Assembly: GCA_032622095.1 (NCBI GenBank)
Contig: CP136066.1
Location: 131,533,917 to 131,597,916 of the forward strand
Source of the DNA: Siphonodentalium dalli
Taxonomy: Eukaryota > Mollusca > Scaphopoda > Gadilida > Siphonodentaliidae
DNA: 64,000 bases
Reading direction: 5' to 3'
Program-made: the position numbers and the translations under genes
Shown here: positions 276 to 57,233 of the stretch, in pieces
Position numbering within the stretch: position 1 is the stretch's first letter
How the letters are laid out: every line of letters starts with the position of its first letter
Notes under the pieces: generated by a model
The model's input: only the letters and a program-made list of their open reading frames with translations
Database searches by the model: none
What the model was told of the DNA's origin: nothing

Positions 276-446
276 CAAGCAGTATATTCCAGCCGTACTC
301 GTTTCCCAACAACTCGGGAAATCCTATTACTTGTGAAATGAATATCCCACACGTAACGCCCAGTTGATGGAGTACACCAAGGGCCCCCCTGGTGTTCGGA
401 GAGGCGATTTCAGACAGGTAAATTGGTGTCAAACCAGTGTAAACAC
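276..446 (-). CDS. SLC2A1-like: GLUT1-like exon: TM4/TM5 with sugar-porter signature
   Basis: The exon is 171 nt: GT completing a glycine codon, 56 codons, then one G. The acceptor is TTTTTCAG (CAG at 447-449) and the donor GTATGT (275 downward). It reads VYTGLTPIYLSEIASP, then NTRGALGVLHQLGVTCGIF, then ISQVIGFPELLGNEYGWNILL. The PIYLSEI...RGALG stretch is the MFS sugar-transport signature. The glutamine of HQLG aligns with human GLUT1 Q161, a sugar-contacting TM5 residue, and HQLG favours class I over class II, which has PQL at this point. The next exon (TM6) is not visible in positions 1-275. Confidence 0.95.
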
Positions 447-1050
447 CTGAAAAATAAGAGAAATGACGTTTCCCATCAAATGATAGAAAACTGACAAAAA
501 ATGTTTTCTTAACGGTAACGCACGCTGAATCTGTATACCCATGTACCTGAATTATTGTGTTATGGTATTTAGATCACGTCACCTGAAATAGTATCAGAGC
601 ACGTATGCGTTTAACGTAATTGAAAAGCGCAATAAACACGACTTCACAATTGTCTAGTATTCTTAACAATCAGATTTAACGTTGCATACACATAGTTGTT
701 GCTAAGCCTTGTAGTTCAAACACAACCACCTCGTCATTCGAGATTAATGTACTATCTAGTTATGAGAGGCCAGCACTCCCGTTCTCAGGAGTTAAAGCAT
801 GAAACTAAACCATTCTCGCTCATAATATATTTTGACTTCTGGGTTCTGAGTTGGTATTCGCCGATTGCACATTGCAGGGTGATAACCCATGACGTGGAAC
901 TTCCGGTTTAGCTCAGCCCGCAAATATGAGCTCGCGGCGGCGTTATAGGTAGTTAACAATTAAACATCTGAATTATGTTCTTCCATCGCTACGTAACAAT
1001 ACAAATCCGTTCAGATTACAGTAATATACTGGACATAAAGTCCCCAAAAC
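447..1050. other. intronic stretch, nothing recognised
   Basis: Intron DNA immediately upstream (minus sense) of the TM5 exon. The short frame at 696-911 has no recognisable product and lacks supporting context. Confidence 0.4.
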
Positions 1051-1052
1051 TA

Positions 1053-1625
1053 AGGTTTCAATCGAATGTATAGCCGGTATCAACAAGAGCGAAGCGCATG
1101 TATTATAGTGAAGGGATTTAAAAATAGACACACTCACCACAAAAAGCGGGGAATGTTTCCTCTTAATAACTCACTGATCTACAACTGTGCAGATACAAAC
1201 TCATTCTTTTTGCCAAATTAACAGAGTTTAAACCACTTTTCATAAATATTAGCGAATGAATCGTCGCCATACAGGTCGCCAATTTGTTTCTAGGCATTAT
1301 GGGAAGGAAACCGGTGTACTGAAAAATAAGTGCATGTGTTCTGATACACTTATTTTTCAGAACACCGGTTCCTTCCAAGAATGCTTAACATTCAAAATGG
1401 CGACCTATATGGCGACGAACTCGGAAGTACCTGTGAAAACTATGTTAATATGGCAAAAAAGATTGATTTTATCGCTGCATAGTTATAGATGAGTGCGTTT
1501 AGATTGATCTAAAACAGGCACCATGTGCCCGTTTTTGTGTTGAGTGTATTTAAATGATAGACTTAATCCATTCACTACATTCGCTTCGCTTTTAGTGATA
1601 CCAATTAGAAATTCGATTGAAACCT
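1053..1625. mobile_element. TA-flanked hairpin (foldback) element
   Basis: The two halves are reverse complements along almost their whole length and meet near 1338, where GGAAGGAAACCGGTGT on the left pairs with ACACCGGTTCCTTCC on the right around a loop of about 14 nt. Pairing continues outward through CGTCGCCAT/ATGGCGACG (about 1262/1410), TTTTTGCCA/TGGCAAAAA (about 1208/1452) and GCGAAGCG/CGCTTCGC, to the ends AGGTTTCAATCG and CGATTGAAACCT. A TA dinucleotide sits at both ends (1051-1052, 1626-1627), as expected for a Tc1/mariner-type target duplication. No transposase is present, so it is a non-autonomous, MITE-like palindrome inside a GLUT intron. Superfamily assignment is tentative. Confidence 0.8.
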
Positions 1626-2156: not shown

Positions 2157-4127
2157 AAGTGTCAATGACACTGTAGCTCAACTTTGTAAAGAAGGTAATT
2201 TTTTTGTGATGAGCAATGAATAGAGAGATTAAAAAGGAGTGTAAAAATGAGCAGTAAAGAATTTAGTCACACACAGAGTAAAATCCAAGATGGCTGCTGG
2301 CGGCCATGTTTTTTGGCCGAATGACCCCAAAATGACTCGTTCCCATCTACATGTCAATATTAACATCAATGACAAATTTCATGATGATCAGATAAACAGT
2401 ACGACCTGTGGCCCGTGCTAATGGATTGAATTTTGAAATCAAAGATGGCCACTGGCGGCCATGTTTTTTGTCCGAATGACCCCAAAATGACTCGTTCCCA
2501 TCCAAATTCCAATTTCAACAGCCATGACAAATTTCATGATGATCAGACTAAAGGTACGACCTGTAGCCCGTGCTAAAGGATTTAGTCACACAAAGAGTAA
2601 AATCCAAGATGGCTGCCGGCGGTCATGTTTTGGGCCGAATGACCACAAAATGACTCGTTTCCCATCTACATGTCAATATTAACATCAATGACAAATTTCA
2701 TGATGATCAGATAAACAGTACGACCTGTGGCCCGTGCTAATGGATTGAATTTTGAAATCAAAGATGGCCACTGGCGGCCATGTTTTTTGTCCGAATGACC
2801 CCAAAATGACTCGTTCCCATCCAAATTCCAATTTCAACAGCCATGACAAATTTCATGATGATCAGACTAAAGGTACGACCTGTAGCCCGTGCTAAAGGAT
2901 TTAGTCATACAAAGAGTAAAATCCAAGATGGCTGCTGGCGGCCATGCTTTTTGCCCGAATGACCCAAAAATGACTCGTTCCCATCTACAAGTCATTGGTA
3001 ACATCCATGACAAATTTTATGATGATCAGACTAAAGGTACGCATGTAGCCTGTGCTAAAGGATTTAGTCATACAAAGAGTAAAATCCAAGACGGCTCCTG
3101 GCGGCCATGTTTTTTGGCCGAATGACCCCAAAATGACTCGTTCCAATCTACATGTCATTGTTAACATCCATGTCAAATTTTATGATGATCAGACTAAAGG
3201 TATGACCTGTAGTCCGTGCTAAAGGATTTAGTCATACAAAGAGTAAAATCCAAGATGGCTGCTGGCGGCCATGTTTTTGGGCCGAATGAACCCAAAATTA
3301 CTCATTCCCATCTACATGTCAATATTAACATCTATGACAAATTTCATGATGATCAGAGGAACAATGCGACCCGTGGCCCGTGCTAATGGATTGAATTTTG
3401 AAAACAAAGATGGCCACTGGCGGCCATGTTTTTTGTCCGAATGACCCCAAAATGACTTGTTCCGATCTACATTCCAATTTCAACAGCCATGACAAATTTC
3501 ATGATGATCAGACTAAAGGTACGACCTGTAGCCCGTGCTAAAGGATTTAGTCATACAAAGAGTAAAATCCAAGATGGCTGCTGGCGGCCATGTTTTTTGC
3601 CCGAATAACCCAAAAATGACTCGTTCCCATCTACATGTCATTGTTAACATCCATGACAAAGTTTATGATGATCTGACGAAAGGTACGACCTGTAGTCCGT
3701 GCTAAAGGATTTAGTCATACAAAGAGTAAAATCGAAGATGGCTGCTGGCGGCCATGTTTTTGGGCCGAATGACCCCAAAATTACTCGTTCCCATCTACAT
3801 GTCAATATTAACACCCATGACAAATATCATGACGATCAGACGAACAGTACGGCCTGTAGCCTGTGCTAATGGATTGAATTTTGAAATCTAAGATGGCCGC
3901 TGGCGGCCATGTTTTTTTTTTCTCGGAATGACCCCAAAATGAATCATTCCGGTACAAATGTTGATGTCAACAGCTATGACAAATTTCATAAAGATCCGAT
4001 CAAAGGTACGACCTGTAGCCTCTATTGTTGACACCTTACGCACACACACACACACGGACGACGGACGACAAAGTCATGGCAATAGCTCACTGCCAAACTT
4101 TACAAAGTAAAGTTGAGCTAATAATTG
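2157..4127 (+). mobile_element. TIR element filled with an 11-unit ~160-bp array (copy 1)
   Basis: The left end carries AAAGTGTCAATGACACTG followed by TAGCTCAACTTTGTAAAG. The right end is CTTTACAAAGTAAAGTTGAGCTA, its inverted counterpart, preceded by a (CA)n and a GGACGACGGAC tail. Between them lie 11 units of 154-164 bp. Their AAGATGGC cores fall near 2288, 2443, 2606, 2762, 2926, 3090, 3253, 3409, 3573, 3737 and 3891. Two unit types alternate, one opening GGATTTAGTCATACAAAGAG and the other GGATTGAATTTTGAAATC, so higher-order 2- and 3-unit repeats exist. Each unit has AAGATGGC followed by GGCGGCCATGTTTT. No protein is encoded. Other copies lie at 7.2, 11.1 and 38.1 kb. Confidence 0.85.
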
Positions 4128-7195: not shown

Positions 7196-8915
7196 GAAAG
7201 TGTCAATGACACTGTAGCTCAACTTGGAAAGGGAATAATTTCATGTATTACAGTCAATGGAGCGAATAGGAATGCGGAAAGTTGAAATGTCTAAGTAATA
7301 GTAGATTATCAACATGAAGATATATATAAAAAGTAAAATCAAAGCTATGTTTTCGAATGAAATTTTAAAAAAATTGAGTGGACTGTAGGGTGTGCCAATG
7401 GATTTAGTCATGCAAAGAGTAAAACCCAAGATCGCTGCAGCGGACATGTTTTATGGCCGAATGAACCCAAAATGACTCGTTCACATCTACATGTCTATAG
7501 CCATGACAAATTTCATAATGATCCAGCCAAAGGTACGACTTGTAGCCAGTGTCGAAGGATTTAGTCATGCAAAGAGTAAAATCCAAGATGACTGACAGCA
7601 GCCATGTTTTATGTCCGAATGACACAAAAATTACTCGATCCCATTTACAAGTCAATGTTAACAGCCATGACAAATTTCATGATGATCCAACCAAAGGTAT
7701 GACATGTAGCCCGTGCCAAAGGGTTTAGTCATGCAAAGAGTATAATACAAGATGGCTGCCGGTGGCCATGTTTTATGGCCGAATGAACCCAAAATGACTT
7801 ATTCCCATCTACATGTCAATATTAACATCCATGACAAATTTCATGATGATCCTACCATATATAGTCCGTGCCAAAGTATTTAGTCATGCAAAGAGTAAAA
7901 TCCAAGATGGCTGCTGGCGGCTATGTTTTTTATGGCGAATGACCCCAAAATGACCTGTTCCCATCTACATGTCAATATTAACAGAAATGACAAATTTTAT
8001 GATGATCACACAAACAGTACGGCCTGTAGCCCGTGCTAATGGATTGAATTTTGAAATCCGAGATGGCCTCTGGCAGCCATGATTTTTTGCCGAATGACCC
8101 CATAATGACTCGTTCCCAGTTACATGTCAATGTTAACATCCATGACAAATTTCATGATGATGCGACCAAAGATACGACCTGTAGCCTGTGTCAAAGGATT
8201 TAGTCATACAAAGAGTAAAATCCAAGATGACTGCTGGCGGCCATGTTTTATGGTCGAATGACCCCAAAATGATTCGTTTCCCATATACATGTCAATATTA
8301 ACTTCCACGACAAATTTCACGATGATCAGACGAACACTCAGGCCTGTACCCCGTGCTAATGGATTGAATTTTAAAATCAAAGATGGCCGCTGGCGGCCAT
8401 GTTTTTTTGCCGAATGACCACAAAATGACTCGTTCCCATCTACATGTCAATATCAATGCCCATGACAAATTTCATAACGCCCTGTAGCCCGTGCCAAAGG
8501 ATTTAGTCATGCAAAGAGTAATATCCAAGATGGCTGCCGGTGGCATTGTTTTATGGCCGATCGACCCCAAATTACTCGTTCCCATCTACATTGCAATATT
8601 AACAGCCATGACAAATGTCATGATGATCAGATGAACAGTAGGACATGTAGCCCGTACTAATAGATTTAATTTTGAAATCAAAGATGGCCGCTGGCGGCCA
8701 TTTTTTCCCCCGAATAACCCCAAAATGACTCGTTTCTATCTACATGTCAATGTCAACAGCTATGACAAATTTTATAATGATCCGACCAAAGTTACGACCT
8801 GTAGCCCGTGCTAAAGGAAATTGTTGACGAATCACACACGCACGCATACACACGGACGACGGATACCAAGCCATGGCAATAGCTCAAACTTTACAAAGTA
8901 AAGTTGAGCTAATAA
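7196..8915 (+). mobile_element. TIR element filled with a 9-unit ~155-bp array (copy 2)
   Basis: This is the same family as 2157-4127. It opens with GTGTCAATGACACTGTAGCT and CAACTTGGAAAG, and closes with ACTTTACAAAGTAAAGTTGAGC after (CA)n and GGACGACGGA. Nine units have cores near 7429, 7587, 7750, 7903, 8061, 8225, 8380, 8528 and 8682. They are more diverged from each other than in copy 1 (for example AAGATCGC, AAGATGACT, GAGATGGCC), which suggests an older or less homogenised array. The 89-aa and 68-aa frames on the minus strand are array artefacts. Confidence 0.83.
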
Positions 8916-38057: not shown

Positions 38058-38500
38058 AAGTGCCAATGCCACTGTAGCTCACCTTGAAGAGTGGATAATT
38101 ACTTGTGTAACAGTCAATGTGGTGATTAGGAATGCGGACAGTTAAATGTCTAAGTAATACTAGATGTGAACATGAAGATATATATATAAATTAAAATCCA
38201 AGATGGCCGTTGGCGGTCATGTTATTCAACGAAATTCGGGGGGAAAATGATGGTGTCCATCTAGAGGTCACCCCGATGATCCATATGCAGTTTGGTGATG
38301 ATCGGATGATGGATGTAGTATTTAGGGTGTGCCAAAGGATTTAGTCATGCGAAGAGTAAAATCAAAGATGGCTGCTGGCGGCCATGTTTTTCAACGAAAT
38401 TCGGAAAACAGTTTATGGCTCCCATCTAGAGGTCACCCCGAATATCAGTATGATGTTTGGTGCTGATCGGATGAAGGAAGCGGTCGGTATGGTGTGCCAA
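38058..38500 (+). mobile_element. truncated AAGATGGC TIR family (copy 4)
   Basis: The left terminus AAAGTGCCAATGCCACTG then TAGCTCACCTTGA is followed by two units carrying AAGATGGCCGTTGGCGGTC (38200) and AAGATGGCTGCTGGCGGCC (38367). The phrase GGATTTAGTCATGCGAAGAG lies between them. No right terminus was found. Confidence 0.65.
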
Positions 38501-50955: not shown

Positions 50956-51347
50956 TTAAGTAAGTGGAAGTTCATAGCCCTGAATGTAGGCGGCACACGG
51001 AAGCGCCTTCATTATCCTGAATTTGTGTCACTCTTGAATAGGTATGATATAGTGTGTTGACGTGATACGAAGCGAACTCATGAGTGTTTCATGGGTTAAA
51101 GTTGGTCGACCCGAACATAAGGCAGATAGTTGTCTGATTCTAGGGGCGGTATATAATCCCCCGAAAACACAAAATATGCTAATAATAATTTGCATTCGCC
51201 ATTCGGACTTACAATTAGAAATTATACGTTTACGATAACTTAGTCATGATATATATACTCCTTATGGGTGAATTTAATGCACGAACGGCTCAAGTGCGAT
51301 ACTAGGTGAATACATGTTTGATGCTAGCACGGAACGGTTACGTAGCG
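50950..51347 (+). pseudogene. LINE endonuclease, N-terminal half (segment 1 of interrupted LINE)
   Basis: It reads KWKFIALNVGGTRKRLHYPE, then FVSLLNRYDIVC, then stop/frameshift, then RPEHKADSCLILGAVYNPPK and GEFNARTAQ. This is the order of an APE-type LINE endonuclease: N-V-G-G start with the catalytic N, L...YDI, YxPP, GDFNART. Several stops make it dead. It breaks off at 51347 where the 16-bp array begins and resumes at about 52580. Confidence 0.72.
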
Positions 51348-52577
51348 TTTTTCCGAAGACCCATAACTCCGAAGGTCCGATTCTCCGAAGGTCAAATTCT
51401 CCGACGCCCCGATTCTCCGAAAGCCCATAACTCCGAAGTCCCGATTCTCCGAAATCCCATAACTCCGAAGACCCATAACTCCGAAAGCCCATAACTCCGA
51501 AGGCCTATAACTCCGAACGCCCATAACTCCGAAGGTCTATAACTCCGAAGGTCTATAACTCCGAAGGGCCGATTCTCCGAAGATCATGTTTTATCGCTTA
51601 TTAAATAGTGTACAGTCCAGTGGCGGGGTCAATGGGGCCCTAGGGAAGACCGCCCCCAAAAAAACATGTCAAATGTCATGTAAACGTCAGGAAATCCCTC
51701 CTAGGCATTCAAATATTCACAGTGTTCCTGCCCAGGGGAGCCCCCAGACCAACGATTGGGGGCGACCCCTCCCATGTATGCGCTCCCCAAATCAGGCATT
51801 CGTGATATACTTTCGGCATATCATATGCATGATATATCCCCCACATATGCTAATTAATGTGCACCCCAAAATGGGAACCCTGGCGCCGCCACTGGTGTGC
51901 GCCGGGTATATTATAACGAAACGCTGAAAGAATGTCAGAGTAGCCTAACATGCACAGGGGCGACAAGTTCTTCCCCGTTCACCCCTGTACATTTTACTCT
52001 GGCATCTCATGGGCCAACGTAACGTTATAGTATCTGGTGTATAGTCAGTGGCGGGCCAGGGTTCCCATTTAGGTGGGGGCAGTAGGAAAAGTTTGAATAT
52101 TTCCGGGCGTTTACATGACATTGGACATGTTTTGGTAGGGGCCCATATTGTCTGAAATAGCAAGTAGAGGTTTAATGGGGGCAGTGGGAATTTTGGGACC
52201 CCTTGGCTTCACCACTGGACTGTACACTATTTAGTAAACGATAATACCCCGATAAAACAAAATCTTCGGAGAATCGGACCTTCGGAGAATCGGACCTTCG
52301 GAGTTATGGGCCGTCGGAGAATCGGGCCTTCGGAGTTATAGGTCTTCGGAGAATCGGCCCTTCGGAGTTATAGGTCTTCGGAGTTATAGGTCTTCGGAGA
52401 ATCGGCCCTTCGGAGTTATGGGCTTTCGGAGAATCGGATCTTCGGAATTATGGGCCGTCGGAGAATCGGGTCTTCGGAGTTATGGGCCGTCGGAGAATCG
52501 GGTCTTCGGAGTTGTGGGCCGTCGGAGAATCGGGTCTTCGGAGTTGTGGGCCTTCGTAGTAATAGGTCTTCGGAAAA
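51348..52577. mobile_element. 1.23-kb foldback element with 16-bp tandem-array arms
   Basis: The left arm (51348-51584) is about 14 units of 16 bp, CTCCGAAG plus an eight-base half ending either CCGATT or CCATAA/CTATAA. The right arm (52262-52577) is about 20 units of the reverse complement (CTTCGGAGAATCGG.. / CTTCGGAGTTATGG..). The inner part also pairs: TGTACAGTCCAGTGG (51609) with CCACTGGACTGTACA (52212), ATGGGAACCCTGGC (51869) with CCAGGGTTCCCAT (52058), and ATAACG...GTCAGAGTA (51913) with CTCTGGCATC..AACGTTAT, down to a loop near 51970. It interrupts a LINE endonuclease. No transposase is present. Confidence 0.85.
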
Positions 52578-53507
52578 CCGGTCTGACACCCACGGAACAG
52601 ACATCCACATTCCGGTGCGATGTATACCAAAGACACCAGGAGGCCTACCACATATGCACACAGATTTATTGACGCATGTCGCTTCAACAACATGTACATA
52701 GTTAATGGTCGCGTATGCAGTGATAAAGGGATTGGTAAGCGCACACGTATAGAGACACAAGCCTTGTTGACTATATGCAATCGCTTCAAACGATGTATTT
52801 GCACGTGTATTGGAGTTTGAAGTATTGGAATTCTCATGTTTGAATTCAGATGTGCATTGTGGCATAAGTTTAGAACTTAAAATGCAGCACTGGGTGTGCG
52901 AGCCTTTACATACCAGTCAAATATACGAGCCGAATTGTCAGTCAGTGAAACCGATAATCAAACCATGGAATGATATGAAAGCGCGGGATTTTGTAGCGGG
53001 AGTTAAAGAACGTTCAGTTGAAATATAATCCACACTTAAAGCAGTTGGATACGCTCCGTCGCAGTTTGGTATTGCCAACGCGGCGAACTGTTTAGGAAAC
53101 ATTCTGTCAGAACAAGCCGTTCAAACATTTGGTACTCACAACCGAGCATGTAAATCACGACGAAAAAAAATGTAAAAAGTGGTTTACTCAGAATTTCGCC
53201 GTAAAAGAAGGTCATTTACATGTAATAAGGCTAGAAAGCAGTACTATTTATGCAAGTCTTTGGACTTTAGAACTAAATTGAGGACGTCGAGCAAGCAATA
53301 TAAGCGAACGATGAATAAAATAAACGCGCAGAGATACTTGAAAATTGTAATCGGGAACTGAGGGAAATCCCGAAAAAGTCATCGGACTGCTTTTGTAAAA
53401 CTTGGAAAACATTTACAAACGACAGTGCACGGGTAGTAGTTGAACATATTAGCCTTGATAGTTTATTCGATCATTATAATGCATTAAATGCACCTAATGC
53501 GCATAAT
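52578..53507 (+). pseudogene. LINE endonuclease C-terminus and linker (segment 2)
   Basis: It resumes with DTRRPTTYAHRFIDACRFNN, then MYIVNGRVCSDKGIGKRT, then FEVLEFSCLNSDVHCGISL (SDVH catalytic motif). Next come W..MKARDFVAGVKER and the basic linker FRRKRRSFTCNKARKQYYLC, then RTSSKQYKRTMNKINAQRY, then SLDSLFDHYNALNAPN. Frameshifts and stops are present. It ends at the TIR element at 53508. Confidence 0.72.
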
Positions 53508-53980: not shown

Positions 53981-54608
53981 CCTTGAAGAATTGCCTCCTT
54001 GAATGAGGCAACACATGATATCGAACTGACTGCTCTCATCGATAGTATATATATCCCCAATAACCCCGATGACGAGCTCAATTCACCTATTGAAATGCAT
54101 GAGATCATTGATGTTGTTAATTCTTTTAATATAAATAAACCTCCTGGCGTTGATCAGGTAAGTACTCATTATATAAAATCTACAATTGATGTACTTTTAC
54201 CATTTTACTCAAGATTATTCAACTTGGTATGATTAGATACGGGACTATTCCCAAATGGTTGGGCTATCGGCATGATAGTGCCACTGTATAACATAAAGGA
54301 TGAAAAACCGACCCTAATTCATACAGATGGATCATCTTATTGAGCTGTATTGGTAAGATTTTCACTGGAACCTTGAATCGGCGTCTTGGAACTTATGCCG
54401 AGAGCAACAATTTGCTCAAGGATAACCAAACGGGTTTTAGAAAGGGTTGTTCAACACTAGATAATATTTTCGTTTTATACAGTCTAACTGAAATTTACCT
54501 GCGTGATGGGAAGAAACTTTTCTGTACTTTCGGTGATTTTAAAAAGGCTTTTGATACTGTTTGACGAGAGGCGTTATGTGTTAAGCTTATGAGAACCGGA
54601 ATCAACGG
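53981..54608 (+). pseudogene. LINE reverse transcriptase, N-terminal part (segment 3)
   Basis: Two frames read NEATHDIELTALIDS...LNSPIEMHEIIDVVNSFN, then INKPPGVDQVSTHYIKST, LPFYSRLFNL, then LSCIGKIFTGTLNRRLGTYA, ESNNLLKDNQTGFRKGCSTL, DNIFVLYSLTEIYL and FCTFGDFKKAFDTV. These are RT fingers and palm blocks of a Jockey/CR1-like LINE: K.PG.D, NQ.GFRKG.ST, and D.KKAFDTV with the first catalytic D position. A stop (TTTGA) and frame changes break it. It stops at 54608 where the LTR element starts, in the codon run RTGING. Confidence 0.8.
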
Positions 54609-56682: not shown

Positions 56683-57030
56683 ACGGCAAGATATTTAATT
56701 TAATCCGGAACATGTACCAGGCTACAAAGTCTTGCGTTTGTCAGATTATTTTGTAAGTAACGTAGGGGTAAAACAAGGTGATAATCTATCCCATCTTCTG
56801 TTCTCTATCTACTTGAATGATCTGGAAGATTTTCTAGAAAATTGTGTTACCGAGGGGTTAAAGTATCTTAGCGATCGTGTTGTCCATGAGTTAGAGATTT
56901 ATCTAAAACTATGGCGCATCTTATATGCAGATGATACTGTTTTGTTTGTGGACAATCCTTATGACATGCTACGAATTTTAGATGCTTTTTCTGATTATTC
57001 AGAGTCTTGGGAGCTCAAAATTAACACTAA
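56683..57030 (+). pseudogene. LINE reverse transcriptase, middle part with YADD (segment 4)
   Basis: It continues exactly where 54608 stopped: GKIFNLIRNMYQATKSC, then SDYFVSNVGVKQGDNLS, LLFSIYLNDLEDFL, LWRILYADDTVLFVDNPYDM and LRILDAFSDYSESWELKINT. YADD is the RT catalytic box. It is cut at 57030 by the ACAAGACAG repeat, so thumb and C-terminal domains are absent. Confidence 0.82.
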
Positions 57031-57233
57031 ACAAGACAGTCAAAGACTGTGGGGTCGCTCACCAGACAGCAAAGACTGATAAAACTGGGACTCTGGTGAC
57101 CACAACAGTCAGAACTTTTCATAATCACTTTAAAAGAAGTAGATCTAAACAGGGGAGGTGGCTAGAGAGATTTCATGTATGTGGATCGGTGAATATCTAC
57201 CTCGAATTTACCAACTGCACACTACTGATCTGA
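57031..57233 (+). repeat. ACAAGACAG repeat, copy 2
   Basis: It starts ACAAGACAGTCAAAGACTGT directly after the LINE RT and runs 203 bp to CACACTACTGATC. It is about as long as, and very similar to, the copy at 59521. One frame is open throughout and reads GVAHQTAKTDKTGTLVTTTV, then RTFHNHFKRSRSKQGRWLER. The same frame is preserved in copies 3 and 4, which suggests descent from coding sequence. Family unknown. Confidence 0.7.

Follow-up and report, generated by a model that had tools for sequence, protein, structure and literature searches.

A foldback element with arms of 16-bp tandem units, inserted in a LINE of the scaphopod Siphonodentalium dalli

Results

We analysed a 64,000-nucleotide stretch of the Siphonodentalium dalli genome (hereafter the window; C6:131533917-131597916 of a 2.2-Gb genome in 9 contigs), in which a LINE is interrupted by a foldback element of 1,255 bp (Table 1). 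An earlier note on this DNA, made from the letters alone, had placed the element at 51348..52577. The element itself stands, and its ends had to be moved outwards by 12-13 bp, to 51336 and 52590, because a perfect 8-bp target-site duplication brackets the element at these positions. The two termini are asymmetric (5'-GGTTACG.../...GACACC-3'), with both starting GG (GG...CC). When the right terminus is reverse-complemented, 17 of its 23 positions match the left terminus, as do 9 of the outermost 15, and the first unit core of the arms starts at position 17 counted from either end.

Table 1 Features of the foldback element and its host LINE, in window coordinates
Feature	Position	Strand	Remarks
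Host LINE left of the insertion	51076..51335	+	Probable endonuclease part; in joined 520-bp query
Target-site duplication, left copy	51328..51335	+	CACGGAAC; identical to 52591-52598; flanks joined with one copy align to the empty site
Whole foldback element	51336..52590	.	Without transposase gene; bounded by target duplications
Left terminus	51336..51358	+	GGTTACGTAGCGTTTTTCCGAAG
Left outer array	51352..51586	+	16-bp units of types TCCGAAGnnCCGATTC and TCCGAAGnnCCATAAC, with variants
Left inner arm	51587..51963	+	From arm alignment
Secondary inverted segment in left inner arm	51618..51894	+	CAGTGGCGG...CCGCCACTG
Loop	51964..51978	.	
Right inner arm	51979..52263	-	From arm alignment
Homologous secondary segment in right inner arm	52046..52217	+	CAGTGGCGG...CACCACTG
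Right outer array	52264..52574	-	Same 16-bp units, inverted; types nearly alternating (32-bp period)
Right terminus	52568..52590	+	CTTCGGAAAACCGGTCTGACACC
Target-site duplication, right copy	52591..52598	+	CACGGAAC
Host LINE right of the insertion	52599..52858	+	In joined 520-bp query; reverse-transcriptase pieces downstream

The whole element had also been read as one imperfect hairpin, and the pairing of the interior arms bears this out. Aligning 51584-51975 with the reverse complement of 51971-52264 gave a score of 116, against a mean of 29 (sd 5, maximum 48) for 300 single-letter shuffles. Folded as single-stranded DNA, the whole element reached -387 kcal/mol versus -175 +/- 7 for 40 dinucleotide shuffles (z -29), and the interior folded without the arrays gave z -12 by the same number of dinucleotide shuffles. 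The inner arms each contain a smaller inverted repeat of their own, CAGTGGCGG...C(G/A)CCACTG, which we take to be similar to hAT-type ends; inspecting these repeats by eye, we saw no target duplication.

The state of the host LINE before insertion can be read from other copies. We joined 260 bp from each side with one copy of the duplication and scored 40 of the 54 candidates returned by a genome search. The joined flanks matched at least 19 other places without interruption, from query base 1 to 518-520 (18 places at 79-83% identity and one at 75%), and the window's own locus was returned as two pieces overlapping by the 8-bp duplication. We read one of the empty sites (L103) and aligned it over the junction. 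Empty LINE sites, which the earlier note had suggested looking for, were thereby found together with an 8-bp target duplication. That note had further claimed that the element splits a LINE endonuclease. Insertion into a LINE is upheld by the empty sites; the endonuclease identity is weak, as profile PF03372 reached 18.2 bits on the L103 empty site (E 0.0022), short of the cut-off at 24.5, and neither of the window fragments flanking the element had a Pfam match.

Farther downstream, the window contains two reverse-transcriptase pieces, one at 54304-54561 (E 6.9e-12) and the other at 56699-57076 (E 8.7e-11). They cover parts 3-82 and 113-187 of the RVT_1 profile and are separated by ~2.1 kb that holds an open reading frame ending near a zinc-knuckle-like CGYCRKGNHKEENCW. 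This frame had no significant Pfam match, and the LINE reverse transcriptase has itself likely been split by a second insertion. Elsewhere in the window, arrays of related ~164-bp units with a 319/320-bp double period occupy three places (2255-4020, 7392-8789 and 38192-38500). These arrays are satellite-like, and pairs of them are roughly 70-88% alike. Several direct duplications of about 0.7-1.5 kb fall between 11651 and 17849, many of them 92-99% identical and some 76-78%.

The element belongs to a large dispersed family. A first look at the genome returned 1,484 candidates, and the best 40, when scored, gave 216 matching pieces. Perfect matches to the 23-bp left end number 764 genome-wide and those to the right end 619, with none for the reversed-pattern controls. 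Statistics for contig C1 rest on the first 100 listed places for each end pattern. All of the first 100 listed left ends are on C1, and 73 of them are followed within 30 kb by a perfect same-strand right end. The resulting pairs mostly span 890-1307 bp (68 of 73), the others measuring 1477, 1574, 1601, 4018 and 24360 bp, while the other 27 left ends and 11 listed right ends have no perfect partner there.

We examined copies in two sets. Both ends, allowing up to 4 errors, were present in 36 of the first 40 places (39 loci and the window), which are the copies most similar to the query. These 36 carry 25 exact 8-bp, 2 exact 9-bp and 1 exact 7-bp duplication, with 7 of 8 letters matching in 4 copies and no duplication by this measure in 4; counting independent insertions, by treating L025 and L032 as segmental duplicates, exact 8-bp duplications occur in 23 of 34. 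No strong target consensus is visible among the duplications of these first-examined copies. The later 15 places, every one of which required a perfect left end, comprise the first 13 entries of the C1 list and two clustered left ends picked deliberately. Fourteen of them have both ends, with 9 exact 8-bp duplications, 2 exact 9-bp, 2 with one mismatch and 1 copy without (L079). Pooling the 50 complete copies gives 34 exact 8-bp, 4 exact 9-bp and 1 exact 7-bp duplication, 6 with one mismatch in 8 and 5 copies without, or exact 8-bp duplications in 32 of 48 independent insertions (minus L025 and L032). Divergence from the consensus is 0.5-2.3% in the 36 copies, 0.2-2.9% in the 14 copies of the C1 list and 1.0% in the window copy. 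Since the copies read lie only 0.2-2.9% from the consensus, amplification was recent. Together, the many copies with the same outer ends, their 8-bp duplications and the empty sites support the earlier note's reading of a foldback element with tandem-array inverted repeats inserted in a LINE.

Several copies depart from the common form. The centre is longer by 229 bp in L090, L097, L098 and L099 and by 316 bp in L100. We considered the longer middle domain (L090, L100) as a possible coding form and rejected it, as the copies read showed no transposase frame. When the L100 centre was used as query and the best 40 of 1,357 candidates were scored, 36 of the scored places proved 99% identical to 315 bp of it, leaving out its first 51 bp, which marks a second subfamily. 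L104 (C1:155973560-155975240), the only copy of this subfamily that we read, has GGATTACGTAGCG/GACACC as its ends; its left inner arm is shortened, and it lacks a clean duplication. The 4,018-bp pair (L095) contains a second left end, preceded by a 773-aa reading frame that resembles, by eye, a LINE reverse transcriptase. At L079 (C1:80123350-80125200), a second, inverted left end sits 250 bp outside the copy's own, together with inverted copies of the flanking sequence; this looks like rearrangement after insertion. L046 (C9:169855858-169859186) consists of two head-to-head foldback copies, each without its right end, which form a larger palindrome. Finally, a short degenerate array of CCTTCGGAATAGAGAA-like units adjoins the foldback copy in L027 (about 2325-2430) and may represent a sister family with a like unit type.

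The outer parts of the arms are tandem arrays of 16-bp units of two types, confirming an observation of the earlier note. In the consensus of 36 copies (1,274 bp), the left array contains 14 whole units and the right array 19, each with a partial unit in addition, and all 33 units are exactly 16 bp long and in register. The unit core, TCCGA, varies in one of the 33. Unit positions 1, 3, 4, 5, 10 and 16 are invariant, position 2 varies once, position 8 is loose, and positions 12-15 are mostly two-state, either ATAA-like or GATT-like. Measured in 16-bp steps, 34 of 36 left arrays and 35 of 36 right arrays come to within 1 bp of a whole step, and 28 and 33, respectively, lie exactly on one. Copies thus differ in array length mostly by whole units. 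Total element lengths on C1, taken from the pairs among the first 100 listed left ends, do not cluster at 16-bp steps, presumably owing to indels outside the arrays.

Two pairs of loci reveal how array length varies. L017 and L025 share their target duplication, and their flanks are 99.6 and 99.2% identical, which makes them copies of a single insertion that was duplicated along with the surrounding DNA; their left arrays measure 264 versus 232 bp, 32 bp apart. L011 and L032 form a second such pair of segmental duplicates, with flanks 98.6 and 97.8% identical and arrays of 249/328 versus 231/297 bp. Because these segmental duplicates differ in array length, we conclude that the arrays change in place. 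The order of unit types differs between the two arms, from which it had been proposed that the arrays were reshuffled after the palindrome formed. We found the difference in order as described, but it is broadly common to the 36 copies typed, among which mainly unit number varies, and is not peculiar to the window copy. Reshuffling since palindrome formation is possible. Units from one arm do not clearly resemble each other more than they resemble units from the other arm (p = 0.19 by permutation), and the idea that the two arms have independent array histories was dropped for want of a signal in this test.

These data also speak to the possibility that no transposon is involved, and that the structure is a local palindrome with tandem repeats or has spread by segmental duplication only. 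Segmental duplication does occur, as illustrated by the two fetched pairs (L017/L025 and L011/L032) and by a tandem duplication of left ends at C1:214.7 Mb. However, the genome contains hundreds of dispersed ends, the flanks and 8-bp duplications differ among copies, and empty sites exist. The target duplications and empty sites largely refute a local palindrome or satellite, and we regard an explanation without transposition as extremely improbable.

We then considered which transposase might move the family. None of the copies read showed a transposase gene, and our searches found no autonomous copy. Merlin transposases are present in the genome, with 62 matches to PF12762 (DDE_Tnp_IS1595; 77 of 77 candidates scored). 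We fetched 30 of these loci with about 1.5 kb on each side, and none (0/30) had foldback ends. The 16-bp array was likewise absent from the 30 fetched loci, eight of which had isolated unit-like matches with 3 mismatches. The boundary could be read in two of the Merlin groups inspected and in none of the others; both start with GG and are otherwise unlike the foldback ends. With foldback ends in none of the 30 fetched loci from the 62 matches, Merlin seems unlikely as the direct parent.

MULE domains are abundant, judging from the 150 of 813 candidates that were scored. Of 20 listed MULE matches on C1, 17 lie at least 177 kb from a listed perfect left end (left ends listed to 240 Mb), and the other three are one tandem locus. 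At this locus (C1:214712-214731 kb; L094, L101 and L102), tandem units of ~5.08 kb combine a truncated foldback left arm with an adjacent FLYWCH-MULE gene of two exons. The three left ends (C1:214.71-214.73 Mb) are each 2.08 kb from a FLYWCH-MULE gene in the same orientation, and the tandem unit that we read has exons for FLYWCH (E 1.1e-11) and MULE (E 3.9e-15). The chance expectation for such a same-strand pair of left end and MULE on C1 is about 0.008, or 0.034 in any orientation.

We nevertheless set aside the reading of this locus as an autonomous parent and kept it out of the evidence. At three other places, known from matches alone, the match to the sequence following the arm begins exactly at the junction; one of them (C1:215640668) lies about 1 kb downstream of a pair of perfect foldback ends separated by 1,205 bp. 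In addition, a sister unit lacks the ~1.76-kb stretch bearing the MULE gene, and the breaks show no target duplication. The seeming absence of the truncated arm at three other places and the sister unit without MULE decided us against this locus as the parent, and the left end beside the gene is most likely a fused neighbour. Query positions 136-609 of the junction search are a very common repeat, and only the remainder of the query is informative. In L094, a ~475-bp repeat whose inverted ends are 89% alike separates the arm fragment from the MULE gene (within 290-1349, minus strand). A query containing this repeat returned 6,252 first-look candidates, marking it as very common in the genome.

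Discussion

The element has long inverted-repeat arms composed partly of direct tandem repeats, array lengths that differ among copies mostly by whole units, and dispersed copies with target-site duplications, all features of the foldback class. We are highly confident that it is a non-autonomous foldback-class DNA transposon that moves by cut-and-paste.

A fuller account of its movement can be proposed from the structure of its ends. A transposase supplied in trans would bind both arms and pair them, and staggered cuts 8 (or 9) bp apart would lead to integration with a duplication of that length. The 16-bp units, with their near-invariant TCCGA core recurring every 1.5 helical turns, may act as a ladder of binding sites, comparable to the several transposase-binding sites in the long arms of Galileo (PMC3688188), and this putative ladder would lend the ends both affinity and identity. 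The arrays would gain and lose whole units in place via slippage or unequal exchange. The transposase would most likely be Mutator/Phantom-like, with Merlin as the second candidate. We put forward this complete statement, comprising a foldback transposon, cut-and-paste movement, a putative 16-bp binding ladder, in-place array change and a Mutator/Phantom-like transposase, tentatively and at slightly under an even chance.

The choice of transposase draws on duplications and ends. Mutator/Phantom elements of the Tm1 kind make duplications of 8-10 bp, a range that covers 34 exact 8-bp and 4 exact 9-bp duplications among our 50 copies. Muta1, which is grouped with Phantom (PMC6446971), makes duplications of 8 or 9 bp (PMC5225508).

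The same structure and movement could be powered instead by a Merlin (IS1016-like) transposase. Merlin families start 5'-GG and make 8- or 9-bp duplications, and in some of them the TIRs are very imperfect and tandem repeats occur internally (PMC8101967). Both the GG start and the duplication lengths are found here, and the GG...CC ends are no worse a fit to Merlin than to Mutator. Merlin transposases also occur in this genome (62 PF12762 matches), and the two Merlin groups whose boundary was readable start with GG. Against this, no foldback end or array was found in any of the 30 fetched loci, and beyond GG the Merlin ends that we read are unlike those of the foldback family. We know of no described Merlin foldback, and none is evident among the titles listed in the literature survey. 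We rate mobilization by Merlin as rather unlikely.

We attach the same low probability to the structure and movement being driven by yet another superfamily, whether hAT, P, KDZ/Zisupton or an undescribed one. hAT and P elements have CA...TG ends. The foldback ends are GG...CC, which led us to reject hAT or P membership on the strength of this general rule. On the other side, the source enzyme of the foldback family was not found in our searches, which covered Merlin and MULE, and duplications of 8 bp are also known from Zisupton and are usual in hAT (PMC12730594).

The regularity of the arms invites a more specific idea, in which they would form a helically phased two-face ladder of putative binding sites with each unit type on its own face. 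A 16-bp step is ~1.5 turns, so neighbouring cores would face opposite sides of the helix, and given that the two types nearly alternate along the right arm with a period of 32 bp (three turns), each type would then lie on one face. Such an arrangement would imply a two-row transposase (or two-protein) filament, with unit number setting mobility. We think this arrangement improbable.

Comparison with known systems proceeds from their descriptions. Drosophila FB (FB-NOF) elements are foldback elements with tandem-repeat arms, longer units and 9-bp duplications, and are likened here by description. Sea urchin TU elements, for which PMC4079207 cites Lieberman et al. 1983, reportedly have an outer arm domain of 15-bp repeats, an inner unique arm domain and 8-bp duplications, and resemble our family to the extent that this description holds. 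The likeness to Drosophila FB suggested by the earlier note is sound at the level of architectural class; a closer counterpart appears to be Tm1 of root-knot nematodes (Mutator/Phantom), with short-unit arrays, asymmetric outermost motifs and 8-10 bp duplications. To judge by its description (PMC3169594), Tm1 is the element most like our family in build: its units measure about 14 bp, its 7-bp end motifs are asymmetric and its transposase is a FLYWCH-MULE. The shared features are arms of short tandem units whose number varies, outermost motifs that are asymmetric and lie outside the inverted repeat, duplications of 8-10 bp that show no clear preference for a target, and non-coding copies, a coding copy being rare in Tm1 (PMC3169594). 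The two differ in the unit, which in Tm1 is 13-15 bp (CGATTCAGTATCCGC) and here is 16 bp in two types, in Tm1's duplications being mostly 9 bp, and in its known FLYWCH-MULE copy. The Tm1 unit and its end motifs CGGTTAA/CCTACCC (PMC3169594) are not matched by our units or ends.

Other systems share individual traits. Galileo (Drosophila, P superfamily) has foldback-like long arms (PMC4168063), and its long repetitive arms carry, within internal repeats, several binding sites for the THAP domain of the transposase (PMC3688188). It differs in making mostly 7-bp duplications, in its P-type transposase and in its direct repeats, which measure about 140 bp in one copy from D. willistoni (PMC4168063, PMC3688188). 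Tetris of Drosophila virilis is likewise a non-autonomous foldback with 8-10 bp duplications and no transposase found, whereas its arms reach 1,735 bp and only three copies are structurally complete (PMC4079207). The Merlin superfamily shares GG ends, 8- or 9-bp duplications and possibly imperfect TIRs, but arms of short-unit arrays are not mentioned in the portion available to us (PMC8101967), and the Merlin ends that we read differ.

The family looks new within a known structural class, as far as these comparisons reach. The titles and abstracts that we surveyed on mollusc and bivalve foldbacks are mainly of satellite-DNA papers, and an existing entry is possible. By itself, the element is an ordinary non-autonomous transposon; the interest lies in the family's youth, its copy number and its regular two-type ladder. 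Whether arm tandem repeats serve as binding sites had, according to a paper of 2013, still to be tested in Foldback and Phantom elements (PMC3688188). A young family with 764 perfect left ends, length differences that are mostly whole units, fixed ends and empty sites amounts to a natural experiment on arm repeats. It could show whether unit number predicts the success of a copy, and how arrays grow and shrink in place.
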